A model generated the notes under the pieces. That model saw nothing but the letters and a program-made list of their open reading frames with translations, had not been told where the DNA came from and searched no databases. DNA of 30,774 nt, taken from the NCBI GenBank assembly GCA_030655595.1, contig JAUSNQ010000023.1:1-30774 (forward strand), given 5' to 3'. The DNA is from Paludibacter sp. (GTDB lineage Bacteria; Bacteroidota; Bacteroidia; Bacteroidales; Paludibacteraceae). The translations under genes were made by a program, and so were the position numbers. Of the stretch, positions 6,456-29,008 are shown piece after piece; within the stretch, counting starts at the first letter, position 1; each line of letters opens with the position of its first letter.

Positions 6456-7907
6456 ATGATGGACAATTGGATTGATACAGCATTACAGCTTTTACATAAA
6501 AGTCTTAGACCGATTCCGCAAGAATTGAATGAACTAGACTGGAAAAGTGGGTTGTCAGATAAAAGTGAACGATTGGCTCAACATATTTCTGCATTTGCCA
6601 ACTATCCAAATGGCGGTTATTTGGCTTATGGAATTGGAAATGACGGCTCTTCAAAATCATTGAGTAAGGAAGAAATGGATAGTATTGTTCAAAAACTCGG
6701 CAACATTGCACGGAATAATCTGGCTCAACCTATTGGCATTGAACACGCTGTGACAGAATTTAACGGACAACCTGTTTTAATTATCAAAATACCGGAATAT
6801 CAAGATAAACCAGTTCACTTAAGAGGAAGCGATATTTATAATAGCTATAAAAGAAGCGCAGGGCAAACAGTAAAACTATCTCGTACTGAATTGAAACAAT
6901 TAATCGCCTCATCTACAGGCATAGACTTTGAATCTCAAATAGCAGCATCCAATGTGAATGAAGATGAAGTACTAAAGCTGTTGGATTATGACAGCTATTT
7001 CACGTTACAGGAAAAGCGATTGCCTGACACTAAATTGAGTATTCTTCAAACTTTAGCGAGCGAAGATTTAATAAAAAAATCTTCAAGTTTCTGGAGTGTT
7101 TTTAATTTGGGAGCTGTTCTTTTTGCCAAAGATATAATGAGTTTTAAGGAACTCAAGCGAAAAGCGGTCCGCGTAATTGTTTACAAAGAAACCAGCCGTA
7201 TTAATGCATTAAAAGAACAAGAGGGCGGACGAGGATACGCTTCAGGATTTGAAGGCTTGGTCAATTATATTATGGATCAGCTACCTTCCAATGAAGTAAT
7301 AGAAAATGCTATTAGAAAGAATGTGAAAGTTTATCCGGAAGTGGCCATTCGTGAATTTGTAGCCAATGCACTCATTCATCAGGATTTTTCAGTTTCTGGT
7401 TCGGGAGTTATGATTGAAATATTTTCGGATAGAATAGAAATAACCAATCCCGGAGTTCCATTGGTTGATGTAAATCGTTTCATAGACACTGCGCCAAAAT
7501 CAAGAAATGAAAGTCTTGCTTCACTTATGAGACGCTTAAATATTTGTGAAGAAAGAGGCAGTGGAATAGACAGGGCGATTAGTGCCATTGAGGTTTTTCA
7601 ATTACCTGCACCCAAATTTATCAGAGGGGATGATTATACGCGCGTAATAATGTTTGCCCCAACTGCTTTAACCAGAATGACCATTGAAGATAAAGTAAGA
7701 GCTTGTTATCAGCACACCTGTCTGTATTATGTAAATAATCATACAGTAAACAATCAGTCGGTTAGAAAACGATTTAAAATAGGGGTAAATAATGTTTCAA
7801 TGGCATCAAAAATTATTTCAGAAACTATAGAAGCCGGATTAATTAAAGCTTCTGACCCTGAAAACAGTTCGAAAAAATTCGCTTCATATATACCCTATTG
7901 GGCTTAA
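6456..7907 (+). CDS. Schlafen AlbA_2 domain ATP-binding protein
   Basis: This 483-residue protein has the layout of the widespread AlbA_2 plus GHKL-ATPase-like family, often annotated as an ATP-binding protein or putative transcriptional regulator. The N-terminal AlbA_2 region is about residues 25-150, with FANYPNGGYLAYGI near 47-60. A HATPase_c_4-type region is about 299-395, with REFVANALIHQDFS and the hallmark ERGSGIDR (366-373). The C-terminal 80 residues look like a winged-helix DNA-binding region. ATG at 6456 and ATG at 6459 are both possible starts. The gene follows hsdS by 10 bp in the same direction. Members of this family are frequent in defence islands and beside type I R-M genes; whether this one regulates the system or is a separate defence protein cannot be read from the sequence. 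Confidence 0.85.
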   Translation: MMDNWIDTALQLLHKSLRPIPQELNELDWKSGLSDKSERLAQHISAFANYPNGGYLAYGIGNDGSSKSLSKEEMDSIVQKLGNIARNNLAQPIGIEHAVTEFNGQPVLIIKIPEYQDKPVHLRGSDIYNSYKRSAGQTVKLSRTELKQLIASSTGIDFESQIAASNVNEDEVLKLLDYDSYFTLQEKRLPDTKLSILQTLASEDLIKKSSSFWSVFNLGAVLFAKDIMSFKELKRKAVRVIVYKETSRINALKEQEGGRGYASGFEGLVNYIMDQLPSNEVIENAIRKNVKVYPEVAIREFVANALIHQDFSVSGSGVMIEIFSDRIEITNPGVPLVDVNRFIDTAPKSRNESLASLMRRLNICEERGSGIDRAISAIEVFQLPAPKFIRGDDYTRVIMFAPTALTRMTIEDKVRACYQHTCLYYVNNHTVNNQSVRKRFKIGVNNVSMASKIISETIEAGLIKASDPENSSKKFASYIPYWA

Positions 7908-7909
7908 TG

Positions 7910-7995
7910 TTTATTTCATTGGAAAATCACTGTATGGATCAATCTTGAATTATAATGCTGAATTTCAAATGATTATTTATTTCATTGGAAAATCA
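7910..7995. repeat. 20-bp direct repeat upstream of hsdM
   Basis: An identical 20-bp sequence, TTTATTTCATTGGAAAATCA, occurs at 7910-7929 and again at 7976-7995, start to start 66 bp. It fills most of the 112-bp gap before hsdM. The DNA between the copies is unrelated. The second copy ends 24 bp before the hsdM start. Confidence 0.85.
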
Positions 7996-8019
7996 ACAAA
8001 CAAAATTAAAACGGAATAA

Positions 8020-9651
8020 ATGACACTAAAAGACCAACAACAATTAGGTAAAACCCTTTGGAATATCGCAGATGACCTTAGAGGCGCTATGAATGCGGAT
8101 GATTTCCGTGATTATATGCTTTCTTTTCTTTTTCTTCGGTATTTATCATATAACTACGAAGAGGCAGCGAAAAAGGAATTAGGTAGGGACTATCCTGCAT
8201 TGGATGAGAATGACAGCCAAACTCCATTGGCGCAGTGGTACATGGTTAATGAGCCGGATGTGCCCATATACGAAACGCAGATGCGCAAAAAAGTGCATTA
8301 TGTTATTAAACCTGAGCATCTTTGGAGCAATATCAGCGAAATGGCCCGTACCCAAAATGGTGAATTGTTGGTTACGTTGGAGGCAGGCTTTAGATACATC
8401 GAAAATGAATCGTTTGAAAGTGCCTTTCAAGGCTTGTTTTCTGAAATCAATCTGAATTCGGAAAAACTCGGAAAAACCAATACCGACAGAAATAAAAAGC
8501 TTTGCACCATCATTCAGAAAATTGCGGAGGGAATTGCTGATTTTTCTACTGATGCAGATACGCTTGGTGATGCTTATGAGTATTTGATCGGTCAGTTTGC
8601 CGCAGGTTCGGGTAAAAAGGCTGGTGAGTTTTATACCCCACAACAAATCTCTACCATACTTTCGGAAATTGTTACCCTCGATAGCCAAGACCCAACAATG
8701 GGTAAGAAAAGCAAATTGGACAAAGTTCTCGATTTTGCTTGTGGCTCGGGTTCATTGTTGCTGAATGTAAGAAAGCGTATAAAAGATGCTGGTGGTAACG
8801 TAGGAAAAATATACGGTCAGGAAAAAAATATCACCACCTACAACCTGGCCCGTATGAACATGCTGCTGCACGGCATGAAAGACACGGAGTTTGAAATTTT
8901 CCACGGCGATACTTTGCTCAATCAGTGGGATGAACTCAACGAAATGAATCCCTCCAAAAAGTTAGAATTTGATGCCATTGTCGCCAATCCGCCGTTTAGT
9001 TTACGCTGGGAACCCAACGACACCTTAGCCGACGATTTTCGTTTCAAAAGCTATGGTTTAGCACCCAAATCGGCCGCTGACTTTGCCTTTTTATTGCACG
9101 GATTTCACTTCTTAGGCAAAGAAGGAACAATGGCCATCATATTACCTCATGGCGTTCTGTTCCGTGGAGGTGCGGAAGAAAGAATCCGCACAAAACTTTT
9201 GAAAGATAATCACATTGACACAGTCATTGGTTTGCCTTCAAATCTATTCTATTCAACCGGAATTCCTGTTTGTATCCTGGTCTTGAAAAAATGCAAAAAG
9301 CAAGATGATGTCTTGTTTATCAATGCCAGCGAGCATTATGAAAAAGGCAAAAGACAAAACACACTCAGAGAAGGCGAAAACGGAGAACCGAACGACATTC
9401 GAAAAATTGTAGAAACATACCAGTACCGACCAGACAATATTGAAAGATATGCGCGCCGGGTTTCAATGGAAGAAATCGAAAAGAATGGCTATAACCTGAA
9501 CATTTCGAGGTATGTAAGTACTTCGCTGGACGAAATACAAATCGACCTGAAAACCGTAAACAATAAATTGACTGCGATAAACGAAAGCATTCAAACAAAT
9601 ACTGACAAACACAATGAATTCTTGAAAGAATTGGGATTACCTCCAATTTAA
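8020..9651 (+). CDS. hsdM: type I restriction-modification DNA methylase (M) subunit
   Basis: HsdM transfers a methyl group from S-adenosylmethionine to N6 of adenine at the site chosen by HsdS. The 543-residue length fits the family. An HsdM N-terminal helical domain covers about 5-150. The catalytic domain has AGEFYTP (201-207), the SAM-binding motif I DFACGSGS (238-245) and the N6-adenine catalytic motif NPPF (323-326). The C-terminal helical tail (about 515-543) probably contacts HsdS. It is the last gene of the locus and is separated from hsdS by the AlbA_2 gene and a gap with a direct repeat, so it could be transcribed separately. No clear terminator is visible after the stop codon. Confidence 0.96.
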   Translation: MTLKDQQQLGKTLWNIADDLRGAMNADDFRDYMLSFLFLRYLSYNYEEAAKKELGRDYPALDENDSQTPLAQWYMVNEPDVPIYETQMRKKVHYVIKPEHLWSNISEMARTQNGELLVTLEAGFRYIENESFESAFQGLFSEINLNSEKLGKTNTDRNKKLCTIIQKIAEGIADFSTDADTLGDAYEYLIGQFAAGSGKKAGEFYTPQQISTILSEIVTLDSQDPTMGKKSKLDKVLDFACGSGSLLLNVRKRIKDAGGNVGKIYGQEKNITTYNLARMNMLLHGMKDTEFEIFHGDTLLNQWDELNEMNPSKKLEFDAIVANPPFSLRWEPNDTLADDFRFKSYGLAPKSAADFAFLLHGFHFLGKEGTMAIILPHGVLFRGGAEERIRTKLLKDNHIDTVIGLPSNLFYSTGIPVCILVLKKCKKQDDVLFINASEHYEKGKRQNTLREGENGEPNDIRKIVETYQYRPDNIERYARRVSMEEIEKNGYNLNISRYVSTSLDEIQIDLKTVNNKLTAINESIQTNTDKHNEFLKELGLPPI

Positions 9652-15515: not shown

Positions 15516-17885
15516 TTAAAAGTAAATTTTATAAGTCATCATCGGCATAAATCCCATTTGATAGGATGTGGATACTTCCTGTTTGTTGGGGTTCCAGTTT
15601 TGCGTGAAGATATTCTGGTGGTTGGTTAGGTTTTGCAGGTCGAGACCCCATTCCTGGTTTACCTTTTTGCCGTTTGTTCGCAAGGTTATGCGGGCATTGA
15701 TTCTGAAATAATCAGGGAATCTTTCGGTATTCACATTAGCCCAATCGTACACCGAACTGTTATTCACAGCCGATTGTTCTGCGTTAATTGGTAAATAGCG
15801 CATACCACCTGCCCAAACACCCTTCAGGTCGGCAGCAAGCGATGTTTTTTGGTTGAAATGCCATTCGTATCCGCCTAAGGCATTGAATACATAGTTGTTG
15901 TTGAAGATCGTATTTCGCCAGATGCCGTCGTATCCGGTGGCTTTTGCATCGAAAACCGATGCTGTAACCAGATAATAAAAGCCCTTATCAAGAAACTTCT
16001 CCAGCGTAAGTTCAACGCCCATATTTTTGCCTTTCCCTTCATTCACACAGTTGTGAAAAACATTATACGAAAATCCACCACCTGCGTTTAGCATCGAATA
16101 TTCAGGTCGATCAGGCGATACCGGTATGTTATAAAGGTATTGGTAATAGACTTCCAATTTCAACCGGTGCCTGTCACCCAACACCCGATCGTAACCGGCC
16201 ACTAAGTGCATGCTTTTCGAGAAATCAAGCTTTTCATTGGTGCGTTCGTGAATGTTGTTTGCCGAATCGGTCAGCAACTGCATGAAGTAAACCGGTTTAA
16301 GTTGCGACTGACTGTGCAATCCGGCGCCAAAACTAACAGCTTCTTTTTTAGTAGCTTGCCATTTAAGTGCCATCCTCGGCTCAATCGCATGAGAATCGTT
16401 CAGAAATAAATAAGCAGCATGCAGACCTGAATTCAGCGTAAGTTGATCAGAAAACTTGTATTGCCATTCTCCAAAAGCTTTTGCTGAAGAAAGGTTTTCA
16501 TGCATATCCATGTAATACCTGTAATCCCGGATGTGTTTGACATACTGTTTCCCTTTTTGCATGATGTCGAACAGGTCGAAAACAACTCCTGTGTTGATAA
16601 AATTTTGTTTGTTAATTCTTTGGGAGTATTTGCTAGAGAAAGCGTATTTTATTTCATAGATGTGCTCATTAATCATTTCGATGTCGGGATCAAAAACAAA
16701 GTCGGTCATAGATACTTTATTTCGATGCCCCGTCAGAGCCAGGTTGGTAGTCACCCGCGCGTCGTTCGAAAAATAGTGCACATGCGTTAAACCTGCCACA
16801 CCCATTTGTGAACCAAACAACAAATCGGTTCCCGAAAATCCAAATTGAGCCGAGTCGCCCTTGCTGTCGAGCATTTCGATATAGCTATCGCCGGCAATGC
16901 CGAAAAAAGTTAAACGACCCGATTTCGTGGGGAAGTTTAGTTTAAACGAAATATCTTTATACTGAGGCACCGCGCTGCCTGTACCGAAATCCATACCCAG
17001 TTTGTTTAACACTTCCATCGTGCTATAACGAATATTCACCAAATACGAAGCCTTTGTTTTTCTGCAAAGAGGTCCTTCTGCACCCAGTTCGAAACCATTG
17101 AATCCTACCTGTCCCATAAATTCATGCTTTTCGTTATTTCCGTTTCGCAGTCGCAAATCGAAAGCACCAGCCAACGCATTTCCAAATTCAGCAGGGAAAG
17201 CACCGGTATAGAAGTCGGAATTTGCCAGCAGGTTGTTGTTCAACATGCCAACCGGTCCGCCCGTTGAGCCCATGGATCCAAAGTGATTGGGGTTTGGGAT
17301 GTCAATACCTTCGAGTCTCCACAACAAACCCTGTGGCGAATTTCCACGGATGATGATATCGTTGCGTTGATCGCCCGCTGATGATACACCGGCAAAATTC
17401 TGTGCCATACGCGAAGGATCACCCAGGCTACCGGCATATCGTTCAGTTTGCTCCACGGTAAACGAACGGGCACTCGTAAGCGCCATCTCGTTGAGTGGTT
17501 GGTCTCTGTTAGCAGCTAAAATCTCAACGTCGCCAAGCGCAATCACTTGCTCTTCAAGACTTACATTCACGACTAATTCACGCCCGGTAGTAAGCAACAG
17601 GTTACTCATCACCACAGGATGGTAGCCCATCATCGAAACCTGAATTTCCGTCCGGCCTGTCAGCAATCTTTCGAAACGAAAAACCCCGTCATTATCGGTA
17701 GTGGTACCCTGAAACGGATCGGAGTTTAGAACCACAACAGTTGCCCCGGGCAACGGAAGTTTGGTAAAAGCATCCACCACTTCACCTCTTAATGTTTGGG
17801 TTAGATTGGTTTGCGAAAACGCAAACAGAGAAGATAAACAGAGTAGCAAGAGAAATCCTGATTTTTTTGCATTTAGTGTTAGCAT
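15516..17885 (-). CDS. TonB-dependent outer-membrane receptor
   Basis: This 789-residue outer-membrane transporter is predicted to take up a ligand using the TonB/ExbBD proton-motive coupling. A signal peptide covers about 1-24, with cleavage near FAFSQ. A carboxypeptidase-regulatory-like beta-sandwich covers about 32-112. A plug domain covers about 120-245, with IIIRGNSPQGLLWRLEGID. The rest is a 22-strand-type barrel ending in an aromatic residue (TYKIYF). It is not paired with a SusD-like lipoprotein, and the canonical SusC signatures are absent, so a polysaccharide role is not supported. It is divergent from the LolA/ABC operon, and the promoter region has a site shared with that operon. 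The ligand is unknown. Confidence 0.93.
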   Translation of the reverse strand: MLTLNAKKSGFLLLLCLSSLFAFSQTNLTQTLRGEVVDAFTKLPLPGATVVVLNSDPFQGTTTDNDGVFRFERLLTGRTEIQVSMMGYHPVVMSNLLLTTGRELVVNVSLEEQVIALGDVEILAANRDQPLNEMALTSARSFTVEQTERYAGSLGDPSRMAQNFAGVSSAGDQRNDIIIRGNSPQGLLWRLEGIDIPNPNHFGSMGSTGGPVGMLNNNLLANSDFYTGAFPAEFGNALAGAFDLRLRNGNNEKHEFMGQVGFNGFELGAEGPLCRKTKASYLVNIRYSTMEVLNKLGMDFGTGSAVPQYKDISFKLNFPTKSGRLTFFGIAGDSYIEMLDSKGDSAQFGFSGTDLLFGSQMGVAGLTHVHYFSNDARVTTNLALTGHRNKVSMTDFVFDPDIEMINEHIYEIKYAFSSKYSQRINKQNFINTGVVFDLFDIMQKGKQYVKHIRDYRYYMDMHENLSSAKAFGEWQYKFSDQLTLNSGLHAAYLFLNDSHAIEPRMALKWQATKKEAVSFGAGLHSQSQLKPVYFMQLLTDSANNIHERTNEKLDFSKSMHLVAGYDRVLGDRHRLKLEVYYQYLYNIPVSPDRPEYSMLNAGGGFSYNVFHNCVNEGKGKNMGVELTLEKFLDKGFYYLVTASVFDAKATGYDGIWRNTIFNNNYVFNALGGYEWHFNQKTSLAADLKGVWAGGMRYLPINAEQSAVNNSSVYDWANVNTERFPDYFRINARITLRTNGKKVNQEWGLDLQNLTNHQNIFTQNWNPNKQEVSTSYQMGFMPMMTYKIYF

Positions 17886-17933
17886 GATCGTTCTTTTAAT
17901 AGTGACGGGTAATATATAATTTTTATTTCACAG

Positions 17934-17941
17934 CAAAATTA
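17934..17941 (-). promoter_or_regulatory. -7 element for TonB-dependent receptor gene
   Basis: On the minus strand TAATTTTG followed by C matches TAnnTTTG. It lies 48 bp upstream of the ATG at 17885. It overlaps one copy of a 21-bp repeated AT-rich site (17934-17954). No clear -33 TTTG was found. Confidence 0.45.
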
Positions 17942-18143
17942 ACATTAATTCATTTTTGCAGGAATATAAAAGTTCCTGTAAGTGCTGTTTTGTGCGATGA
18001 ATGGCTGATTTTGTGATTTAAACGCCTAGGCAAACAAATAATCTTGCCACGGGGTATGTGAGGCAGATAGAAACATTTATCCCCGAAAAACAACCATTCA
18101 GCCTTTAAAACAAGCCATTTGCCAAAATTAATATTAATTTATT
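17934..18143. promoter_or_regulatory. paired candidate operators between divergent genes
   Basis: The 324-bp gap 17886-18209 holds two copies of a 21-bp sequence, at 17934-17954 and 18123-18143, with 19 of 21 identical bases. The second copy contains a perfect 16-bp palindrome AAATTAATATTAATTT (18125-18140). The first copy covers the -7 box of the receptor gene; the second covers the expected -33 region of the LolA operon. This arrangement fits a shared regulator, but the sequence is simple and AT-rich, so chance is possible. The rest of the gap shows no gene. Confidence 0.4.
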
Positions 18144-18156
18144 AACAGCAATAATA

Positions 18157-18164
18157 TATATTTG
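18157..18164 (+). promoter_or_regulatory. -7 element of the LolA-like/ABC operon
   Basis: TATATTTG followed by C matches TAnnTTTG and lies 45 bp before the ATG at 18210. It supports the internal ATG as the true start, since the longer reading frame from the TTG at 18162 would begin inside the promoter element. Confidence 0.6.
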
Positions 18165-18209
18165 CAAGCAAATAATCGTAGCAAACAGCTTCATTTAAAA
18201 AGAGAAAAC

Positions 18210-18965
18210 ATGAAACTAATCATTCAGATAACTTTAGTCATGCTCACCACACTAATGTGTACAAGCAATGCAAAAGCACAGAATTCGGCAGCAGATATCA
18301 TCAAGACAATGGAAGACCGGATGCGGGGTGTATCATCGTACAGTGAAATGAAAATGACCACGGTGCGTCCACGCTACACGCGCGAAGTGACCATGAAGAC
18401 CTGGGCAAAAGGGGAAGATTTCTCCCTGATTTTGATTACCGGTCCCGCGCGTGACAAAGGAACAGCGTACCTCAAAAGAGGTAAGGAAATATGGAATTAC
18501 GTGCCCAATATCGACCGGATGATCAAAATGCCACCGTCGATGATGTCGCAGTCGTGGATGGGCAGTGACTTCTCGAACGACGATCTGGTGCGCGAAAGTT
18601 CCACGATAGATGATTACATGCATCGGATTGTACGGTCTGAAACTTACAACGGCTACAACTGTTGGGTGTTGGAGTTGGTTCCCAAGCCCGAATCTTCCAT
18701 CGTGTACGGGAAAGTACTCATGTGGGTGGCTAAAGATTTATACGTACAATTAAAAGTAGAAAATTACGATGAGGATGGAATATTGGTTTCCTCCGTGCTT
18801 TTTGATGCGATCAAGGACCTGGGAGGGCGTAAAATTCCATCTAAAATGGAGGTCATACCGGCAGATAAAAAAAATCAGAAAACCGTGTTGGAATACTTAG
18901 ATGCCCGGTTTAATTTCGACATCAAAGAGAGTTTCTTTTCGCAACAAAATTTAAAAAACTTATAA
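18210..18965 (+). CDS. LolA-like outer-membrane lipoprotein-sorting protein
   Basis: This is a 251-residue periplasmic protein. The signal peptide is followed by a signal peptidase I site (NAKA|Q, after residue 23); the Cys in TLMC does not make a lipobox. The mature protein matches the LolA-like family often annotated as outer membrane lipoprotein-sorting protein: an incomplete beta-barrel with a hydrophobic groove that carries lipids or lipoproteins. Visible family-like stretches are KRGKEIWNYVPNIDRMIKMP and SDFSNDDLV. The start is ATG 18210, preceded by AGAGAAAAC and downstream of the promoter. It is the first gene of an operon with two permeases and an ATPase, 17 bp before the next gene. 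It probably shuttles a substrate from the ABC complex to the outer membrane. It is not necessarily the housekeeping LolA. Confidence 0.88.
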   Translation: MKLIIQITLVMLTTLMCTSNAKAQNSAADIIKTMEDRMRGVSSYSEMKMTTVRPRYTREVTMKTWAKGEDFSLILITGPARDKGTAYLKRGKEIWNYVPNIDRMIKMPPSMMSQSWMGSDFSNDDLVRESSTIDDYMHRIVRSETYNGYNCWVLELVPKPESSIVYGKVLMWVAKDLYVQLKVENYDEDGILVSSVLFDAIKDLGGRKIPSKMEVIPADKKNQKTVLEYLDARFNFDIKESFFSQQNLKNL

Positions 18966-18982
18966 AAACAAATTATAAGCGT

Positions 18983-20200
18983 ATGCAAACATTAATTATA
19001 TTGGCCTGGAGAAACATCTGGAGAAACAAACGCCGTTCGTTTATAAGCATAGCATCGGTATTATTTGCAGTTATGTTTGCCATCATGGCAGATTCTTTCG
19101 AAAGAGGTTCTTACGAGAACATGTTGAAGAATCTGGTGAATTTCAGTACCGGTTACATCCAGGTTCAGGATGTGCTGTATGAAGAAGAACCTTCGATCGA
19201 CAATATTCTATTGTATGATGAAGCATTGACTTCCACACTGGAAAAGTTTCAGGAAGATATTGACTTCACGGTTCCGAGATTGCAGGGTTTCGCACTGGCA
19301 GCGGGTACAACTAAAACGCGGGGTACATACATCTTAGGTATCGAACCGGAGAAGGAAAAACGACTTAACGACCTGGAATCGAGGATTACTGAAGGGGATT
19401 TCCTCACAGGGAAAGATGAGCGTGTCGTGATAGGTGAAGGACTTGCCAAAGTGATGAACCTTTCGGTGGGCGACACCCTGATATTGGTTGGACAAGGCTT
19501 TCAGGGTGTCAATGCAGCCGGTATGTTCCCTGTGAAAGGTATCGTGAAACTCTCCATTCCCGACATGAACAACAACACCGTTTACATGTCGATCGAAGCA
19601 GCACAACAGTTTTTTGGAGCTGAAGAACGCATTTCTTTTTTGATGGTGATGCCCAATAATCCATCTGCTACCCGCTCATTAGCCCATAAAATCAACGAAG
19701 AACTTGACAGCGAATGGTACAGGGCATTAACGTGGGAAGAGTTGTTGGTTGACATGCTCAAGATGATGGAAATCGACAGGGCCGGTAGCCGGATGATCAT
19801 TTATATCCTGTATGTGGTAATAGCTTTTGGGCTATTAGGAACCATTTTAACCATGACACTCGAACGGTTAAATGAATTTAAGATGCTGATATCCATCGGT
19901 ATGAAACGCTGGCAACTGGCAATAATCGGTTTGTTGGAATCTGTGTTCTTAAGTTTTATCGGGGTCATAGCCGGTATGGCCATAACATTTCCAATTACCT
20001 TGTACTATTACTTAAACCCGATTGAATTAACAGGTGAAATGGTTCAAATGATGGATGAATATGGCTTCGAGGCAGTCATGCCAGCGTCCATTGCACCCGA
20101 AATATTCATTTCAGAAGCGTTGACAATATTCTTTATTGCCTTGCTAATCGGCCTGTATCCTGTAGTCAAGATTTATCGATTAAAACTTCAAAGAGATTAA
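18983..20200 (+). CDS. ABC transporter permease, FtsX/LolE type (first)
   Basis: This 405-residue inner-membrane protein has the MacB/LolCE layout. One N-terminal transmembrane helix (about 18-37) follows an AWRNIWRNKRRS cytoplasmic start. A large periplasmic domain covers about 40-265. Three C-terminal helices (about 272-296, 316-342 and 375-398) form the FtsX domain. Transporters of this type work by mechanotransmission: ATP hydrolysis moves the periplasmic domains to extrude a membrane or periplasmic substrate rather than to carry it through a channel. It sits 17 bp after the LolA-like gene and 29 bp before a second, related permease, which suggests a heterodimer like LolC/LolE. Confidence 0.92.
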   Translation: MQTLIILAWRNIWRNKRRSFISIASVLFAVMFAIMADSFERGSYENMLKNLVNFSTGYIQVQDVLYEEEPSIDNILLYDEALTSTLEKFQEDIDFTVPRLQGFALAAGTTKTRGTYILGIEPEKEKRLNDLESRITEGDFLTGKDERVVIGEGLAKVMNLSVGDTLILVGQGFQGVNAAGMFPVKGIVKLSIPDMNNNTVYMSIEAAQQFFGAEERISFLMVMPNNPSATRSLAHKINEELDSEWYRALTWEELLVDMLKMMEIDRAGSRMIIYILYVVIAFGLLGTILTMTLERLNEFKMLISIGMKRWQLAIIGLLESVFLSFIGVIAGMAITFPITLYYYLNPIELTGEMVQMMDEYGFEAVMPASIAPEIFISEALTIFFIALLIGLYPVVKIYRLKLQRD

Positions 20201-20229
20201 ACCATTCACCAACAGTAGATAATAATAAG

Positions 20230-21453
20230 ATGAAGACAATATTAAAAATAGCATGGAGAAATGTGTGGCGAAACAAAGCCCGGAGTATCGTCATTATCCT
20301 GGCAGTTGGTTTCGGCTTGTGGGGTGGAATTTTTTCCACCGCGCTCATCAATGGGATGATGAAGCAACAATTTGATTCGGGTATCAAGAACATTGTTTCA
20401 CACCTCCAAATTCACCATCCGGATTACTTAGTCGAAAAGGAACCTGTTTACACGGTTTCAGATGCAGCATCCATTGTTCAGTTTTTAGAAAACCACGAAA
20501 AGGTAGCTGCCTTTACAACACGTGCGCGTACCAATGGCATGCTCGCAACCGCGTCGATGACATCAGGTGTTGAAATTTACGGTATCGACCCCATGCTCGA
20601 AAACCAAACAACGGCACTTCAAAGCAATTTGGTGGATGGCGACTATTTCGAACAAGTGACTCGTAACCCGGTGTTGATCGGTGAAAAGCTCGCCGATAAA
20701 ATGAAGATTAGCACGGGTAGCAGAATCATCATCACCTTTCAGGACCTGGAAAATGAAATTGTTTCTGCCGCTTTCAGGGTGTGTGGTGTTTACAAAACAT
20801 CCAACACGGCAAACGATGAACGCAACCTGTATGTTAAACAAGCTGATCTGGATGCCCTGTTGGGAGGAGCTGGCACGGTGAATGAAATAGCCGTATTGCT
20901 GCACGAGCTTGATAACTCGACAGTTTTTCAGTCCGAATTAAAAGATAAATTCCCCGGTAACGAAATAAGAACCTGGTTCGAGGTAAGTCCGGAACTTAGC
21001 TTTATGACTGAATTCTCCGGATTCTCGTTGATGATTTTGCTGATTATCATTTTATTCGCGATGGCTTTTGGTTTACTCAATACCATGCTGATGACCATTT
21101 ACGAACGCACCCGCGAGTTGGGCGTGTTGATGTCGGTTGGCATGAACAAGATACGGGTATTCTCGATGATTGTGCTCGAAACCAGCTTTTTAGTGCTTAG
21201 TGGCTCAGTTTTCGGGTCTTTCCTCGGGGGGTTGACTGTCTATCTCTCTTCCAAATCGGGACTCGACATCTCGGCTTTTGGTGGCGATGTATTGTCGGAA
21301 TACGGTTTCAGCGCGATTATCTATCCGACTCTCGAGCCTTCCTTCTTCTTTCACCTGGCAATATTGGTGCTCATCACGGCCATTCTATCGGCCTTATATC
21401 CGGCTTACAAAGCCCTGAAGTTAAATCCGGCAGAAGCAGTTAGAAAAGAATAA
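20230..21453 (+). CDS. ABC transporter permease, FtsX/LolC type (second)
   Basis: This 407-residue permease has the same layout as its upstream neighbour: AWRNVWRNKARS start, one helix at about 18-40, a periplasmic domain, then three helices in about 272-400. It ends with the common FtsX-family tail ALKLNPAEAVRKE. The two permeases share the start motif and domain order but differ in most residues, so they are old paralogues likely to form a heterodimer. The ATPase gene follows after 60 bp that contain a 9-bp periodic sequence. Confidence 0.92.
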   Translation: MKTILKIAWRNVWRNKARSIVIILAVGFGLWGGIFSTALINGMMKQQFDSGIKNIVSHLQIHHPDYLVEKEPVYTVSDAASIVQFLENHEKVAAFTTRARTNGMLATASMTSGVEIYGIDPMLENQTTALQSNLVDGDYFEQVTRNPVLIGEKLADKMKISTGSRIIITFQDLENEIVSAAFRVCGVYKTSNTANDERNLYVKQADLDALLGGAGTVNEIAVLLHELDNSTVFQSELKDKFPGNEIRTWFEVSPELSFMTEFSGFSLMILLIIILFAMAFGLLNTMLMTIYERTRELGVLMSVGMNKIRVFSMIVLETSFLVLSGSVFGSFLGGLTVYLSSKSGLDISAFGGDVLSEYGFSAIIYPTLEPSFFFHLAILVLITAILSALYPAYKALKLNPAEAVRKE

Positions 21454-21454
21454 T

Positions 21455-21490
21455 ACAAATAGCACGAATAAAACGAATCATACAAATTGT
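21455..21490. repeat. 9-bp periodic array, four degenerate units
   Basis: Four successive 9-bp units start ACAAAT, ACGAAT, ACGAAT and ACAAAT (21455, 21464, 21473, 21482). They fill the gap between the second permease and the ATPase gene. The consensus is ACRAAT plus three variable bases. No ORF or hairpin explains it. Confidence 0.6.
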
Positions 21491-21513
21491 AAACATTTTA
21501 AAATAGCAACACC

Positions 21514-22197
21514 ATGGCAATCATTAAAACAGAAAATCTGGTAAAAATATACAACAGTTCCATAGCGCCAGTTAAAGCCGTATCGAATGTAAACCTCGAA
21601 ATTCACGAAGGTGAATTTACAGCCATCGTTGGTCCGTCGGGTAGTGGCAAAACTACTTTCCTGAACCTGATAGGCGGTTTGGATAAGCCAACCGAAGGGA
21701 AAATCTTCATCGATGGCGACGACATCAGCAAGCTAACCGACAATCAACTGATCAATTACCGGCTGAAGAATATCGGCTTTGTTTTCCAATCATACAACTT
21801 AATCCCGGTGCTTACTGCCAAAGAAAACGTGTCGTTTATCATGCTCCTGCAAAAACGGAGTCATAAAGAAATGAACGAAAGAGCCGAGGAGTTGCTGCAT
21901 CAGGTGGGTTTATCCGACAAGATGGATGTGCGTCCGAACAAACTTTCGGGGGGACAGCAACAACGTGTAGCAGTGGCCAGGGCGTTGGCTTCAAGACCCA
22001 AATTCATTTTGGCCGATGAACCGACAGCCAATCTCGATACCGCATCAGCCTTTAATTTGCTCGACATCATGGCACGTTTAAACGAGGAGGAAAAAATCAC
22101 GTTGTTGTTTTCAACGCACGACCAACGGGTTATCGACAGGGCAAAAAGGGTGATTACTTTGGTTGATGGAGCCGTGAGTTCGGATGTAATCAAATAA
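21514..22197 (+). CDS. ABC transporter ATP-binding protein, LolD/MacB type
   Basis: This 227-residue ATPase has all the motifs of an active nucleotide-binding domain: Walker A GPSGSGKTT (40-48), Q-loop Gln92, signature LSGGQ (144-148), Walker B FILADEP with Asp168 and Glu169, and the switch His202. The sequence is closest in character to the LolD/MacB/FtsE group, which pairs with FtsX-type permeases. It should drive the two permeases encoded directly upstream. It is separated from the following outer-membrane protein gene by 19 bp. Confidence 0.95.
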   Translation: MAIIKTENLVKIYNSSIAPVKAVSNVNLEIHEGEFTAIVGPSGSGKTTFLNLIGGLDKPTEGKIFIDGDDISKLTDNQLINYRLKNIGFVFQSYNLIPVLTAKENVSFIMLLQKRSHKEMNERAEELLHQVGLSDKMDVRPNKLSGGQQQRVAVARALASRPKFILADEPTANLDTASAFNLLDIMARLNEEEKITLLFSTHDQRVIDRAKRVITLVDGAVSSDVIK

Positions 22198-22216
22198 AAT
22201 TGACAATAAGCAGGGA

Positions 22217-23407
22217 ATGAAAATGATTATTATTCGGTTGTTTGTATTGCTGGTGTTGATTTCAGCAACAACAGCAACAACAGCAAGCGCACAGGATGTT
22301 GGGAACGAAGCAGCGACCACAAACAAGTTCAGTATCCGTGGTTATATCCAGGAAATGCCAACTTTGCAATTTGTAAGGGGAGTCGATGGCTATAGTTTCA
22401 ACAACACCTTGCACAACCGCCTCAATATGCATTACCAATTCTCGTCGAACCTGCATGTGGCGTTGGAAGTACGCAACAGGTTGCTGTCAGGCGACATGAT
22501 TAAAGTTTTGTCGCCCGCAATAGTTGACTTAATCGAACAAGACAACGGACTGGTGGATGCTTCTATCGTGCCATTTTACGGTGATAATTGGCTTTGGCAC
22601 CTCAAGTCGGACAGGTTTTACATCGATTGGAAAAACAAGAATCTGCAAATTCGTCTCGGTCGGCAACGCATCAACTGGGGCATCAACATGGTTTCCAATC
22701 CCAATGATTTATTCAACACTTATTCCTTTTTCGACATCGATTATCCCGAACGTCCCGGAGCCGATGCCTTGCGGGTGCAATACTTCACGGGCGACCTCTC
22801 GAGGGTTGACTTTGCCGTGAGTCCCCATCGCGAGCTGAAAAACTCGACTGTAGCCCTGCTGTATGCTTTCAATAAAAATGCATACGACTATCAGTTGATG
22901 GGAGGATATTACAGGGAGCGATTTGCCCTGGGAGGCGGATGGGCAGGCAACATAGGCAACAGCGGGTTTAAAGGCGAATTTACCTTCTTCAACGACGTGA
23001 ACAAGATGAACTCGCTGAATGAAATCGACCTGGTGGCATCGGTTTCAGTCGATCATATCTTTCCCAACACCTTGTATGTTTTAGTGGAAGCTTTATACAA
23101 TGGCGGACACCAGCTCCAAGAACAAAACCTGTTGATGATGACGGAACCCATGCGGGCCGACAATATCTTCTTCTCGAAATATGCCTTAACAGCCAGTGCC
23201 ATGTATCCCATCTCACCCATCCTGAGCACCAGTTTGGCCGGATCCTATATGCCCGATATGAAAGCATTCTACCTGAGTCCAAACCTCACTTACTCGATGG
23301 CTACCAATTTGGATGTCAGTTTGCTGGCTCAATACTTTCATATTAAGCAAGAAATAAATACTGTAGAAAGTCTGGCATTTTACCTGCAGTTGAAGTATTC
23401 ATTTTAA
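22217..23407 (+). CDS. outer-membrane beta-barrel protein of the ABC operon
   Basis: This 396-residue protein has a signal peptide cleaved near TASA|Q (after residue 25) and then a pattern of alternating hydrophobic strands ending in an aromatic residue (LQLKYSF), as in outer-membrane barrels. Stretches such as QIRLGRQRINWGINMVSNP and the preceding strand layout resemble alginate-export or DUF1302-type porins, which accompany LolA-like proteins in some other bacteria; this link is from memory. It lies 19 bp after the ATPase gene. It is the best candidate for the outer-membrane part of the export pathway. The signal peptide is encoded by a 9-bp near-tandem repeat (22264-22290, ATTATTASA). Confidence 0.85.
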   Translation: MKMIIIRLFVLLVLISATTATTASAQDVGNEAATTNKFSIRGYIQEMPTLQFVRGVDGYSFNNTLHNRLNMHYQFSSNLHVALEVRNRLLSGDMIKVLSPAIVDLIEQDNGLVDASIVPFYGDNWLWHLKSDRFYIDWKNKNLQIRLGRQRINWGINMVSNPNDLFNTYSFFDIDYPERPGADALRVQYFTGDLSRVDFAVSPHRELKNSTVALLYAFNKNAYDYQLMGGYYRERFALGGGWAGNIGNSGFKGEFTFFNDVNKMNSLNEIDLVASVSVDHIFPNTLYVLVEALYNGGHQLQEQNLLMMTEPMRADNIFFSKYALTASAMYPISPILSTSLAGSYMPDMKAFYLSPNLTYSMATNLDVSLLAQYFHIKQEINTVESLAFYLQLKYSF

Positions 23408-23416
23408 ATCAATAAT

Positions 23417-24640
23417 ATGAAAAATGTTAAAAAATGCCAGTGCCCAACCGTTTTATTATTAACGCTTAATTTTATGCTTATAACCATGAATAATTCTTTA
23501 GCACAAAACAATATTGTTGACATTAAATCTGACGGAATAATATTTCCATTTGCGATAGAAATCGACCCGATGGAAAAACTGCTTCTGGTCAATTTCGAAA
23601 AAGACCCTGACTCGGTTTACATGGGTTTTGAACCTCAGGTATTCGATGACCCCATAAATGGGACCGGACATTTAATTATTGGCTGGAGAACAGACAAAAA
23701 GATTGATGTTTACCATCAAAAATCTCTGAAACCGGATACTTCAAAGTACAGCATTGCCGGAGCAGGTTTAAACAAAATGATTCCAGTCGATATGGAAAAA
23801 GCATTTTATGAAGTGAACGACTTTGGTGTTCAGGCACATTATAAGTTCAGGGACATGCTGGAAAGAGAAGTCGAAATTTCAATCAGAGAAAACAATCAAA
23901 GAAAACGAAAGCCATTCGGTTTGCTGGCACCAATGGGAGATGCTGCAACTCATCCCACAGCGCTGCCTATGGTCCTACTGCACGATTTTTATTTCGTCAG
24001 AAAAAACGAAACAGATATTCAGGTTTCCATCAATGACAAATATCACCAATTGGAAAATCTTCCAATACGTATGGATCGTCAAAAAATGACTTTTGTCCGA
24101 TATAGCCCTAAGCCTTTGATAGCAACATTTAATCCGGAGTTTAATGGCGTGTTGTATGATTTTCGACCATCAGTGGGGCAAGAAACTTTTCAAATGGGCG
24201 ACTATGTATATGATATTGAGTGGACTGACCATACAGCATTCATTAAATCAATGAGCGTAAAGAATAACATTCATATGCTAACCATGAGTTTTAGCCCTTC
24301 TTTTCCATGCTTGACTACGATTCCGGCAAACACCAGGTTTATGGGTGAGTTTACAATTACCGGACATGAGTCTGTAGGAAGTATTTCCGGAGCATATACC
24401 ATAGAATCCAGTAAGGAATCCATGCACATAAGCTTAGTTCCATCGAAAGGTTGGAAACCAAAAACAACCAAATTTTCCACTTGGTTTTTATTTTCTGTAG
24501 CCAAAGTTTTTAAAAAGTGGCCTACCACCTATCAATGGAATGCTGAATTACATAAGAGTCCCGAAGGTTTGTGGTATATGCAGTCAAAATGGATGCGTAC
24601 AGGGAAGATTTTGAAAGATCCTACACATCTAAAGCATTGA
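23417..24640 (+). CDS. secreted protein of unknown family in the ABC operon
   Basis: This 407-residue protein is not recognised. It has a signal peptide of about 29 residues with cleavage near NSLA|Q, so it is exported, probably to the periplasm. No lipobox and no clear barrel C-terminus are present. The body is mixed, rich in beta-type segments, with aromatic residues (for example VLYDFRPSVGQETFQMGDYVYDIEW split over about 235-275) and a conserved-looking tryptophan-rich end (KKWPTTYQWNAEL, LWYMQSKWMRTG). It is 9 bp after the outer-membrane barrel gene and is probably part of the same transcript. By position it may be an accessory factor or an enzyme acting on the exported molecule, but nothing in the sequence proves it. 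Confidence 0.8.
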   Translation: MKNVKKCQCPTVLLLTLNFMLITMNNSLAQNNIVDIKSDGIIFPFAIEIDPMEKLLLVNFEKDPDSVYMGFEPQVFDDPINGTGHLIIGWRTDKKIDVYHQKSLKPDTSKYSIAGAGLNKMIPVDMEKAFYEVNDFGVQAHYKFRDMLEREVEISIRENNQRKRKPFGLLAPMGDAATHPTALPMVLLHDFYFVRKNETDIQVSINDKYHQLENLPIRMDRQKMTFVRYSPKPLIATFNPEFNGVLYDFRPSVGQETFQMGDYVYDIEWTDHTAFIKSMSVKNNIHMLTMSFSPSFPCLTTIPANTRFMGEFTITGHESVGSISGAYTIESSKESMHISLVPSKGWKPKTTKFSTWFLFSVAKVFKKWPTTYQWNAELHKSPEGLWYMQSKWMRTGKILKDPTHLKH

Positions 24641-24704
24641 GGTTTATGCTATCACAAATTATTAAACCTTTGCTAGAAATTGAATAACCATAAATTATTA
24701 AAAC

Positions 24705-25169
24705 ATGACTGATTATATTATTTTTAGTTTGCTGTTTTTTATAATCCACCTTGTATGTTACGTAATTGCAGGAGTTATTGATCTCCAATTAGCTAGAAAA
24801 GTGTATTCAGGAAAAGACAGATTATATAAGTCATTTTTCAGAAACATGGAAGATGAAAAAGAAAACAAACGTATTGCAAAACTACTAATACCCTCTCAGT
24901 TTATTAGAGCAATATTAATGTCATTAGTGCTATATCCGATACTGCCTTTTCTAAGAAACCTGACATTCGAAATGCAGTTTATTTTTATGGCATCCCTCAT
25001 GTTTGTTTATGCAGATTTTGCCAGCGCAATTCCATTTTCCAATACCATTGAAGGAATGGTTTATTTAAAAAAAGAATTTGTAAAGAAAAGGGTGTTTTGG
25101 ACGATTCAACTGGAAGCAAGTTTATATAGTATCATGTTTGGATTGTTATCAGCTTGGATTTTAATATAA
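24705..25169 (+). CDS. small integral membrane protein, unknown function
   Basis: This is a 154-residue membrane protein with four likely transmembrane helices, at about 4-24, 63-83, 86-106 and 130-152. A charged cytoplasmic or periplasmic loop of about 30-60 contains RKVYSGKDRLYKSFF and a KEN-rich stretch. It is not recognised. It lies 64 bp after the preceding gene; AACCTTTG near 24666 differs from the -7 consensus at the first base, so a separate weak promoter is possible. It may be the last gene of the export operon. Confidence 0.8.
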   Translation: MTDYIIFSLLFFIIHLVCYVIAGVIDLQLARKVYSGKDRLYKSFFRNMEDEKENKRIAKLLIPSQFIRAILMSLVLYPILPFLRNLTFEMQFIFMASLMFVYADFASAIPFSNTIEGMVYLKKEFVKKRVFWTIQLEASLYSIMFGLLSAWILI

Positions 25170-25318
25170 TATAGCTATCCCTGATTCGTATTAATTATTC
25201 CGATAATTGATCGTTGAAATTTCACCCAATCCAGATTTGAACCTGAAAGTTCGTTGATTTAAAAACACAACTCCCTTACACTTTCTCACATTACTCTCCT
25301 ATTTCTAAAAAATTTAAT

Positions 25319-25326
25319 TATATTTG
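25319..25326 (+). promoter_or_regulatory. -7 element for the Lrp/AsnC regulator
   Basis: TATATTTG followed by C matches TAnnTTTG and lies 44 bp before the ATG at 25371. The -33 region is only weakly TTTC-like. The 201-bp gap before this gene otherwise shows no ORF. The octamer is identical to that of the LolA operon. Confidence 0.55.
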
Positions 25327-25370
25327 CAGCATATAAATAGAATATTTAATCATTTCCTCTAAATCAAACC

Positions 25371-25871
25371 ATGGCACAACACCGCATCGACCGTTTAGAC
25401 AAAAAAATCCTGCAACTCATTTCACAGGATGCCCGTATTCCTTTCTTAGAAGTAGCCCGCGAATGCAATGTTTCGGGTGCAGCCATTCATCAACGAATTC
25501 AAAAACTTAAAAACAATGGCATCATCAAAGGATCGGAATTTATCATCGATAATTATAAGGTAGGATACCAGACCTGTGCATTCATTGGAGTAACTTTATC
25601 CGACATCAAAGCTTTTGCCGAAGTGGCTGAGGAACTGAAGAAAATCCCGGAGATAGTAGAATGTCATTACTCAACCGGGAAGTATTCGCTTTTCGTGAAA
25701 ATTTATGCCCGCGACAACAAGCATTTGCTACAGGTAATTGTTGAAAGGATGACTGCCATAAGAGGAATTGCGCATACCGAGACTTTCCAAATTTCGCTGG
25801 ATGAAGTTTTTAGCCGGCAACTTTCTGTATTTGATACTGAGGAACCTGAAGAAGTAGAAAGTGTTGAATAA
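25371..25871 (+). CDS. Lrp/AsnC family transcriptional regulator
   Basis: This 166-residue protein is a one-component regulator that responds to amino acids or similar small ligands and binds DNA as dimers or octamers. An N-terminal helix-turn-helix covers about 8-55, with DKKILQLISQDARIPFLEVA and the recognition helix SGAAIHQRIQKL. The C-terminal RAM ligand-binding domain covers about 65-145. A short acidic tail (TEEPEEVESVE) ends the protein. It has its own promoter and a strong terminator region downstream. It could control the neighbouring export operon, but no site for it has been proved. Confidence 0.95.
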   Translation: MAQHRIDRLDKKILQLISQDARIPFLEVARECNVSGAAIHQRIQKLKNNGIIKGSEFIIDNYKVGYQTCAFIGVTLSDIKAFAEVAEELKKIPEIVECHYSTGKYSLFVKIYARDNKHLLQVIVERMTAIRGIAHTETFQISLDEVFSRQLSVFDTEEPEEVESVE

Positions 25872-25905
25872 ACGTGTAAAAAAAAACTTGTCAAACTAGC
25901 TTTTT

Positions 25906-25968
25906 AATTGCGTAGGAGAAAAATAAATAAATAGTTTTTCTCCTGTTTTATTTTCCTCCTACGCAATT
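25906..25968. terminator. nested hairpin terminator between convergent genes
   Basis: Two overlapping inverted repeats lie between the AsnC gene and the convergent outer-membrane protein gene. The inner one pairs GGAGAAAAA (25915-25923) with TTTTTCTCC (25935-25943) and is followed by a T-rich stretch, a normal plus-strand terminator. The outer one pairs 13 bp, AATTGCGTAGGAG (25906-25918) with its exact complement (25956-25968). The two share GGAG, so they exclude each other in part. The region probably terminates both genes. Confidence 0.75.
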
Positions 25969-25980
25969 TTACCTGTCTGA

Positions 25981-28815
25981 TTATCTGCGATATCCTCCCC
26001 CATCTGGTGATCGCATGCCACCATCAGGTCTCATTCCTGGCTCAAATCGTCCATCACCCCTCATTCTTGAGTCTCCATCTCTGCTCGCATTTCCTCCAAA
26101 TTGTCGGATGCGGTAGCTGAAGCTAACCAAAAAATAGGAAGTGAGGGTGTTGTATTTCGTAAACGAGACCGAGTTATCATTTACTACCTGACGGATGTTT
26201 AATTGTTGACGCAACATATCAACCCATTTGACAGATAAAACTCCTCTGTTTTTAAACATCGATTTCTCAACAGATGCATTCCAAATCAACTCGCTTTGAT
26301 CGAAATTGGAATAACCGAGTCGGTTCGAATAAACGATATCACTATTGAGAGACAGGTCGTAAGGCAAACGAATGACGATATTCCCCCGACCACTCCAGTC
26401 ATACGTTTCAGTAAGTCTGTCGCTTAAATTGTTCAGGGAATTTGAATAGCGCAAACTACCCCGAGCTCCTAACTCGATAACATCGTGCGTAAAAGTCAGT
26501 GATAATTGCTGCTGAGCTGTATAGCGCCGCGTAAAACTTGTATCTCCCAATTGTAAATTATCTATATCAATCTCATCAATGTTAAGTCCTTTTCTATTAT
26601 AACCATAGCTAGTATTATATCCGAGATTTGTGCTGGTATTGAAATGTAATCGCTTTTGAATGATGGGTGTATTGAACATGATATTACCGTTCAATGATAC
26701 CGGTTTTTCTTCAGCATTGACTGTCTGCGTATATTGTTTTCCTGAACTGTCGTAAATGCGGTTGGTAACCAATTCGTCTTTCACATAGTTTCCAGAGATC
26801 CAGGTACTGAATGAAGAAAAGGTTTTCTCGTTGAAGTTGCTGTACATCAAGCGCAAATAGTTTGAAAAGGATGGATTTAATCCGGGATTTCCGACTGTTT
26901 CCTGCATCAGATTGGTATTGTTTTTAACCGGTTGCATCTGATTTATGGATGGTTGACGGGTATATCCGCGATAATCAAGCCGCATAAATTCCTTTTTGCC
27001 GAAATTATATTGGAATCGACCATTCGGGGCAAAATTAAATACATTGTTTGTAACATCCCTGACATCACCATTGCCATAAAAAGTCTGACTGTGTGTTTGT
27101 GATGGTTCACCTTTGATACCTAAGGTCAGGTTATAAGCCTTTTCAGTATATTTATAATTGAACTCTAAAGTTTCTCTGAAAAACTTATTCTTAAAATTAT
27201 TGCTGTATTCATCTACATAAGTCGTATAATCTTCCGGATTTTTATTGAAAAATGCCGTCGAATCCGTTGAGGCGTATTGGTCTTTTACACTTGTCTGTGA
27301 ACTTGTAGTGAAAGCAATAACCGTTTCCAACAAGTTCTTATTATTCCACAAAGGCTCTACAAATGAAATACGTGCATCGAAGTTCAACCGGTCAGAAGTG
27401 TTTTTTGTATATTGATTGATTTGAGTTGGTGATGCAGAAATTCTATTCGAAAAATTAAAACTTTGATTGTCACTTTGTGTAAATCCGGAGTACACATTGG
27501 CTGTAAGAGTTCGCCCGAGCTTTGACGCAAACTTGCGACTCACAATCAATCTTAAACCAGCTGATAACGAATTATTTAATCCTGAATTTTGAGCTGTACC
27601 GTAACTTGTTGTATCCAAATCCTGCAAGTAAATATAGTCGCGGTAACTATCCGACGTTCCTGTATTGTAATTAATATTCGGTTGCACAATCAACGTTGTC
27701 AGACTGTCGATTTTCCACTCTGCCTCCAACCTCATATTGGCTTCGTAAGAATCGCTGTTCGAGCGGTTATAGGTTGAGTCGTTGAAGATGGATTCTTTGA
27801 GGTAACTCTCTTTGGTGCTGTTTGTTTCACTGAAGTTATTGGAATGATTGAACGAGCCGTCGCCTCCGATTTTAAATTTATCGTTTACAATGGCGTTGTG
27901 ATTTAAACCCAGATTCTGCGTTTCCGTAATTCCGTTGTTGGAGCCCCACCCACCTCTTCCACGACCGCTTCGTGCGGTATTCACATTGTTGGCTCCACCG
28001 ACAATTGAAGTCTGTGCATCACCTTGCATGATGTTGATATTGGCATTCGCATCATAACGGATGAAATCCTCCAAATCGAGCCCGGCTCCACCGTTCACAT
28101 TTCCGAAAACTCCCTTGCGGCGGTTCGACTTGGTAGTCAGATTAATAATTCTTTCTGTATCTTCATCTTCAAATCCTGTCAGCTGCGCCATATCCGATTT
28201 CTGTTCCAGCACTTGAATCTTTTCTATCATCTCTGCCGGTAGGTTTTTCGTTGCCATTTCTATATCTCCATCGAAAAACTTTTTGCCATCTACCCTGATC
28301 TTTTTAATCTCCTGACCATTGACCGTAATTTTTCCTTCCGCTGTAATCTCAACACCCGGTAGTTTCTTCAACAAATCTTCTACGACAGCATTTTCTTGTA
28401 CTTTGAATGCGGTAGCGTTGTATTCAAGCGTGTCGCCGCGTACTACCAACTGAGCAGCCGTTCCCATGACTTCCAGTTCTTTCAGTGCAAGCACATTTTC
28501 CTGCAATTGTATGTTCTTAAAAATGATGTCTTTTTTGTCCATGACAACGCTTTCTTTGTAATCCAGATAACCTACTGAACTTACGACCAGAACATATTTT
28601 CCGGGATTAACACGAGGTAAACTAAACCAACCATTTCCGTTGGTTTGCACGCCTTGCACCAAGGTCGAATCAGCGGCTTTCAGCAACCTCACTGTAACCA
28701 TTTCCAGCGGCATCCCGTTATTGGCATCAAATACAGTTGATTGAATCGATTTCTGGGCAGTAATACTGATACTAACAAACATCAACAACAGGGCAAAAAC
28801 ACTTTTTTTTATCAT
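25981..28815 (-). CDS. TonB-receptor-like outer-membrane beta-barrel protein
   Basis: This protein has 944 residues when started at ATG 28815. That start gives a clean signal peptide (MIKKSVFALL..., cleaved near ISITA|Q); the longer frame to 28872 would run into an inverted repeat and is not preferred. A carboxypeptidase-regulatory-like domain covers about 20-105. A plug-like region covers about 120-235 (VEDLLKKLPGVEI, TVNGQEIKKIRVDGKKFFDG). A large barrel follows, as in the OMP_b-brl_3 family. After the last barrel strand a 40-residue tail rich in Gly, Arg, Asp and Met follows, with repeated MRGDGR, MRPDGG and MRSPDGG units. The ligand is unknown, and no SusD partner is present. Confidence 0.92.
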   Translation of the reverse strand: MIKKSVFALLLMFVSISITAQKSIQSTVFDANNGMPLEMVTVRLLKAADSTLVQGVQTNGNGWFSLPRVNPGKYVLVVSSVGYLDYKESVVMDKKDIIFKNIQLQENVLALKELEVMGTAAQLVVRGDTLEYNATAFKVQENAVVEDLLKKLPGVEITAEGKITVNGQEIKKIRVDGKKFFDGDIEMATKNLPAEMIEKIQVLEQKSDMAQLTGFEDEDTERIINLTTKSNRRKGVFGNVNGGAGLDLEDFIRYDANANINIMQGDAQTSIVGGANNVNTARSGRGRGGWGSNNGITETQNLGLNHNAIVNDKFKIGGDGSFNHSNNFSETNSTKESYLKESIFNDSTYNRSNSDSYEANMRLEAEWKIDSLTTLIVQPNINYNTGTSDSYRDYIYLQDLDTTSYGTAQNSGLNNSLSAGLRLIVSRKFASKLGRTLTANVYSGFTQSDNQSFNFSNRISASPTQINQYTKNTSDRLNFDARISFVEPLWNNKNLLETVIAFTTSSQTSVKDQYASTDSTAFFNKNPEDYTTYVDEYSNNFKNKFFRETLEFNYKYTEKAYNLTLGIKGEPSQTHSQTFYGNGDVRDVTNNVFNFAPNGRFQYNFGKKEFMRLDYRGYTRQPSINQMQPVKNNTNLMQETVGNPGLNPSFSNYLRLMYSNFNEKTFSSFSTWISGNYVKDELVTNRIYDSSGKQYTQTVNAEEKPVSLNGNIMFNTPIIQKRLHFNTSTNLGYNTSYGYNRKGLNIDEIDIDNLQLGDTSFTRRYTAQQQLSLTFTHDVIELGARGSLRYSNSLNNLSDRLTETYDWSGRGNIVIRLPYDLSLNSDIVYSNRLGYSNFDQSELIWNASVEKSMFKNRGVLSVKWVDMLRQQLNIRQVVNDNSVSFTKYNTLTSYFLVSFSYRIRQFGGNASRDGDSRMRGDGRFEPGMRPDGGMRSPDGGGYRR

Positions 28816-28833
28816 ATCCAATATAGAAAACAA

Positions 28834-29008
28834 AACCACAAAAGGCACAAAAGAAAGACTAAGGGAACACAAAAGAACTAAAAGCTAAAAGCTAAGAGCT
28901 AAGAGCTAAAAACTGAAAGTGATAAATTGTATTCACTTAGGTATTCTAATGTGGTTTAATATTTATCTTTTGTGTTCCCTTAGTCTTTCTTTTGTGCCTT
29001 TTGTGGTT
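28834..29008. repeat. 43-bp perfect inverted repeat with 89-bp loop
   Basis: The arm at 28834-28876 and the arm at 28966-29008 are exact reverse complements over 43 bp. The arms contain repeated CACAAAAG words, at 28837, 28846 and 28868. A 10-bp further match, ACCACAAAAG, lies at 29035-29044. The structure fills most of the 360-bp gap (28816-29175) between divergent genes. There is no ORF inside it. It could be a small non-autonomous element or a strong cruciform. Confidence 0.9.
28876..28917. repeat. heptamer repeat, six degenerate units
   Basis: Six successive 7-bp units run from 28876 to 28917: AACTAAA, AGCTAAA, AGCTAAG, AGCTAAG, AGCTAAA and AACTGAA. The array lies in the loop of the 43-bp inverted repeat, upstream of the outer-membrane protein gene. 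Changes in unit number would alter promoter spacing rather than a reading frame. Confidence 0.75.

Follow-up and report, generated by a model that had tools for sequence, protein, structure and literature searches.

Do seven closely spaced genes in a Paludibacter sp. genome form a single export system, or does only part of the run belong together? The genes lie on contig JAUSNQ010000023.1, in a stretch of 30,774 nt (the window), and an earlier note on this DNA had read them as a self-contained set, distinct from the housekeeping Lol machinery, that connects the inner to the outer membrane. Our comparison with other genomes shows that the first five genes, which encode a LolA-like carrier, two permeases and an ATPase of an ATP-binding cassette (ABC) pump and an outer-membrane barrel, are a conserved cassette whose gene order is retained elsewhere in the Bacteroidota, and that the seven genes are not one conserved system. 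The claimed set thus holds for the ABC engine, the carrier and the dedicated barrel, which are conserved and, in relatives, distinct from housekeeping Lol; it does not hold for the last two genes, here called p407 and p154. All seven open reading frames (ORFs) are on the + strand with intergenic gaps of 17, 29, 60, 19, 9 and 64 bp, and in this respect the earlier description of seven same-strand genes spaced by 9 to 64 bp was confirmed. The features are:

18157..18164, + strand: candidate Bacteroidota-type −7 element TATATTTG, found by pattern scan 45 bp 5′ of the carrier gene
18210..18965, + strand: LolA_like periplasmic carrier, 251 aa, core (PF17131, DUF1329, PDB relatives)
18983..20200, + strand: FtsX/MacB-type permease 1, 405 aa, core (FtsX, MacB_PCD; closest solved structure LolE)
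20230..21453, + strand: FtsX/MacB-type permease 2, 407 aa, core (FtsX, MacB_PCD; closest solved structures LolF and LolC)
21514..22197, + strand: LolD-like ABC ATPase, 227 aa, core (ABC_tran, TIGR02211)
22217..23407, + strand: outer-membrane porin-type beta-barrel, 396 aa, core
23417..24640, + strand: p407, all-beta, signal-like N-terminus; likely added, non-core (model, loci counts, composition)
24705..25169, + strand: p154, small membrane protein with multiple helices, as read from sequence; likely added, non-core

Family searches place the carrier in PF17131 LolA_like (192.8 bits, cut-off 30), with a second match barely above the cut-off to DUF1329 (24.8 bits, cut-off 23.1), and its closest PDB relatives by sequence are 3buu, 4z48, 9tp6 and 3bk5. 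Both permeases match the FtsX and MacB_PCD domains of Pfam; in sequence comparison with the PDB, permease 1 is closest to LolE and permease 2 to LolF and LolC. The ATPase scores 136 bits with ABC_tran and 238 bits with TIGR02211 (LolD), the latter under the cut-off of 307.75. With an FtsX domain, a MacB-like periplasmic core and a cognate ATPase, the pump is a type VII (FtsX/MacB/Lol) ABC system. The barrel reaches 17.6 bits with DUF1302 (PF06980), under the cut-off of 23.2, and is therefore not assigned to that family; a fold search with its model gave porin-type barrels among the matches listed, and no Omp85 match was found in Pfam. In our reading it works like a DUF1302 barrel although it is not filed as one. 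An identification as MacAB-TolC was rejected, since ATPase and permease are separate ORFs with no fusion, and neither an HlyD-type adaptor nor a TolC family appears in the Pfam matches of genes 15516 to 28872.

Conservation of the cassette was analysed in two sets of genomes. The first consists of 45 genomes reached from 45 of 80 p407 loci, and is biased because its members were chosen for carrying p407. The barrel was matched in 27 of these genomes, at 31 places, and a cassette-type ABC gene accompanies it in 25 of the 30 loci that were extended (L numbers denote loci, G numbers genomes); the exceptions are three barrels that meet a contig end upstream (L120, L134, L135), a fragmentary match (L139) and a barrel with an MMPL pump (L140). 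Thirteen loci carry lolA, perm1, perm2, lolD and the barrel gene unbroken, in this order and on one strand, lolA being cut by the contig start in one of them (L129), and L122 has all five genes with other ORFs inserted before the barrel. The second set is an even draw of 296 Bacteroidota genomes, 68 of which, including the seed G026, hold a barrel relative at E ≤ 0.001 (41 above 150 bits). The cassette ABC genes stand together with the barrel in 27 of the 29 new loci from this sample, and in the remaining two (L152 and L153) the contig begins 0.3 and 2.1 kb away. A full-length lolD adjoins the barrel in 25 of the 29; in L150 it lies at the slice edge, and L189 shows it complete with one ORF between. 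Extension of nine of these loci (L188 to L196) showed lolA to barrel in order in six, some with small internal ORFs; two begin at a contig end, and in L194 the upstream genes were left unlabelled by the simple ORF caller, the same genes being shown by tblastn in L155. The concern of the earlier note that the barrel, the 407-residue and the 154-residue genes might not be conserved with the ABC genes was thus borne out for p407 and p154, but not for the barrel.

In relatives the cassette is also not the housekeeping Lol set, as indicated by the 16 of the 27 barrel-positive, p407-bearing genomes that were tested for other Lol genes, all of them relatives of the window. In every one a separate LolC/E-like permease outscores the cassette permeases (TIGR02212, best 173–284 bits), so that in none of them is this the only LolA/LolCDE set in the genome, a possibility that the earlier note had raised. 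Two such separate permeases above 150 bits are found in 10 of the 16, and a PF16584 LolA_2 gene lies away from the cassette in 14 (E ≤ 0.001), over the cut-off in 11.

AmeABCD of Castellaniella defragrans is the closest studied system to the cassette; when it is deleted, monoterpenes are tolerated less well and more Nile Red accumulates (PMC6394551). Both have a LolA-superfamily periplasmic protein (AmeB, DUF1329) and an outer-membrane barrel (AmeA, DUF1302) beside an inner-membrane pump. In contrast to the type VII ABC permeases and ATPase of the cassette, however, the AmeABCD pump is of the resistance-nodulation-division (RND) type (HAE3) and is joined by an extra COG4447 protein, and the cassette barrel, whose DUF1302 match stays under the cut-off, has 396 aa versus 605 in AmeA. 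PP_0765/PP_0766 and PP_2018/PP_2019 of Pseudomonas putida resemble the cassette in that a DUF1302 barrel, for which a complex with a DUF1329 protein is predicted, is linked to an efflux pump, but pump and barrel are in separate loci and there is no ABC engine (PMC10866462). Within the same phylum, Porphyromonas gingivalis PG1178-1181 and operons of Prevotella intermedia combine MMPL, LolA_like and hypothetical genes; unlike the cassette, they use an MMPL pump and have two ABC ATP-binding genes nearby (PMC10434189, PMC10470040). Borrelia BBJ23-29, reported in Borrelia only, clusters a MacB-like type VII ABC system, a LolA-like protein and an outer-membrane barrel, for which the same logic was proposed, and differs in a proposed homodimeric permease, two TPR proteins and, probably, its Omp85-type barrel (PMC13078400). 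LolCDE/LolA itself has two FtsX permeases, a LolD-like ATPase and a LolA-fold carrier; the cassette departs from it in its dedicated porin-type barrel, a carrier of another Pfam family and the separate, better-scoring LolC/E of the relatives tested. No description of the ABC cassette was found in the literature searched, whose available part excluded preprints and most subscription papers.

What could such a cassette do? Lol-like type VII ABC complexes pull lipophilic cargo out of the inner membrane, and proteins of the LolA fold bind acyl chains inside an open half-barrel; YbbAP-TesA of E. coli, also a type VII ABC system, is said to extract hydrophobic compounds. Because the cassette pairs its carrier with a DUF1302-like barrel as in AmeABCD and PP_0765/PP_0766, we read its parts as the pump, the carrier and the pore that handle a hydrophobic compound, and consider with moderate confidence that genes 18210–23407 are likely an ATP-driven export line for a hydrophobic or lipid-like substance. 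In this line the Lol-type ABC pump would drive carrier and barrel, the LolA_like protein would receive the compound in its open half-barrel and ferry it over the periplasm, and the barrel would take it up and let it enter or cross the outer membrane; the cassette would then correspond to the AmeABCD type, with an ABC pump in place of the RND pump. The reading takes up the observed families, gene order, separateness from LolC/E and barrel model, and from there we infer the route, the substrate and the direction.

Genes upstream of the cassette suggest that the exporter is inducible, since a MarR-like or TetR gene stands there in 11 of 19 relatives. A gene of 153–165 aa from one family is found directly 5′ of lolA in nine of them, and the two copies tested are MarR_2-like, their 24.9 and 26 bits falling slightly short of the cut-off of 27; in two others a TetR-type gene takes this position, with 65.6 bits in the one tested.

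Several observations weigh against the export reading. The window has neither a MarR-like nor a TetR gene upstream of the carrier, and lolD was not seen within the stretch read in L137 of the p407-genome set, nor within the slice read in L154, which has lolA and both permeases. PF17131 was matched in all 16 relatives tested for Lol genes, with two or three matches in 14 when weak ones are counted, so that the carrier need not be exclusive to the ABC pump. The barrel is similar to porins for polar solutes and not to lipid channels of the FadL type. Substrate, direction and contacts are proposed by analogy, and the P. putida DUF1302/DUF1329 genes are required for growth on Tween20 (PMC10866462), which could mean uptake.

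Three other readings have to be set against export. The cassette might be a second, specialised Lol route that takes certain lipoproteins to the outer membrane, the barrel serving as their receptor, as an insertase or as a partner in surface export. Its permeases, closest to LolC/E/F, and its ATPase, closest to LolD, would suit this role, which was also proposed for BBJ23-29 (PMC13078400); moreover, several LolA proteins per species have been reported in Bacteroidota, and some lipoproteins reportedly still arrive at the outer membrane when all known LolA and LolB are missing. However, the carrier belongs to PF17131 and not to the LolA_2 family present elsewhere in the same genomes, the barrel is porin-type among the matches listed and has no Omp85 match in Pfam, and the related RND version is an exporter of small hydrophobic molecules (PMC6394551), so that we regard this route as unlikely. 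Still less probable is uptake or retrograde transport, in which a hydrophobic compound would travel inward from the outer membrane to the inner one. FtsX/MacB-type engines of known function work outward, which counts against it, and regulators of the MarR and TetR types fit efflux equally or better, even though uptake would agree with the Tween20 requirement and with the strong induction of the oral MMPL and LolA_like operons under iron or hemin limitation (PMC10434189, PMC10470040).

The third is that of one seven-gene machine, in which p407 would act in the periplasm as a second carrier or an enzyme and p154 would be an accessory subunit in the membrane. Gaps of only 9 and 64 bp, with no −7 element found directly 5′ of p407 or p154 in the pattern scan, would agree with it, as would the barrel followed directly by p407 in L048/L135 and perm1 at 3.3 kb from p407 in L049. 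Barrel matches are found in 27 of 45 p407 genomes versus 68 of 296 in the phylum sample, and in three of the five p407 genomes of that sample when the seed is dropped (Fisher p = 0.08). In addition, metagenome contigs of identical size, 107,779, occur among the relatives of the barrel and of p154, a coincidence that may be a second case of barrel-p154 linkage. Against this, a cassette gene adjoins p407 in 1 of 80 other loci; p407 also occurs in Gram-positives, is often without a signal-like N-terminus, and has recurring neighbours of its own. p154 lies beside the cassette in none of the cassette loci read, and G+C content at third codon positions (GC3) is 48.5–56.7 in the cassette genes, 37.0 in p407 and 28.4 in p154. 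We thus consider a seven-gene machine highly improbable; the earlier assignment of p407 and p154 to the system is not upheld, and both are probably later additions.

p407 has a predicted all-beta structure (pLDDT, the predicted local distance difference test, 88.2), and neither p407 nor p154 matches a Pfam family over cut-off; AttH/CrtC-type lipocalin-like proteins are a tentative candidate for relatives of p407. The p407 family is concentrated in soda-lake bacteria of many phyla, and 41 of the 80 p407 loci carry the sample codes CSSed, CSBr, T1Sed, T3Sed or B1Sed, which according to two papers denote Kulunda soda-lake projects. As these projects reported 871 and 1032 genomes, and thus no more than 2.2% of the collection searched, the Kulunda share is at least ~23-fold over expectation (binomial P 1e-45, which overstates the significance because the genomes are not independent). 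Eight more loci coded DLM2, GEM2 or PLM2 we take from the initials to be from Canadian soda lakes, the codes being absent from the portion of the paper's text seen. p407 is possibly a haloalkaliphile marker family. Its recurring neighbours include DUF6544 genes (12 of 80 loci), and it is fused to an extra N-terminal multi-helix stretch in L041, L043, L046, L048, L049, L059 and L069.

Homologues of p154 are 72–92% identical among the matches listed (n = 120). The gene is present in 6 of 45 p407 genomes versus 0 of 296 in the phylum sample (Fisher p = 4e-6, with habitat as a confounder), and lies less than 5 kb from p407 in three of the six genomes that have both, adjacent only in L019. In L186 and L187 it stands near a relative of the TonB-receptor-like gene of the window (15516–17885), with 60% identity over 568 residues in L186; in the window, the cassette and p407 stand between this gene and p154. 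An AsnC/Lrp gene with its own TATATTTG element follows 3′ of p154. This element rests on what we take to be the Bacteroidota −7 motif; at 18157..18164 the motif is short enough to occur by chance, and the pattern scan found no −33 partner for it. Farther upstream, at 1377–9651, are the type I restriction-modification genes hsdR, hsdS and hsdM, with KilA-N and Schlafen/AlbA-type genes inserted among them.

The cassette itself varies among relatives. In L115, L116, L118, L195 and L196 it contains or adjoins another permease pair of the same type, and a gene of one family is found 3′ of the barrel in L114, L117, L118, L119 and L120, being a patatin-like phospholipase in the one tested (L117). In L140 an MMPL protein, a LolA_like protein and a DUF1302-like, sub-threshold barrel stand together, and genome G025 carries both this MMPL version and an ABC version (L114).

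In the well-known tripartite exporters the periplasmic adaptor is fixed, whereas Lol, to our knowledge, has a soluble carrier and no dedicated pore. We tentatively propose, as an idea that is plausible but could well prove wrong, that Bacteroidota have a second class of exporter spanning the envelope, as yet unnamed, in which a LolA_like shuttle and a porin-type barrel have in evolution become coupled to two unrelated engines, RND and Lol-type ABC. A membrane-dissolved compound would cross the periplasm on a free carrier and not through a fixed adaptor tunnel, and some relatives may tune the system with a second permease pair. As the ABC and MMPL versions occur in one genome (G025), the idea of interchangeable engines is directly testable. 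With its pump, soluble carrier and dedicated barrel, the cassette would be a defined genetic unit in which to study how hydrophobic compounds pass over the periplasm.

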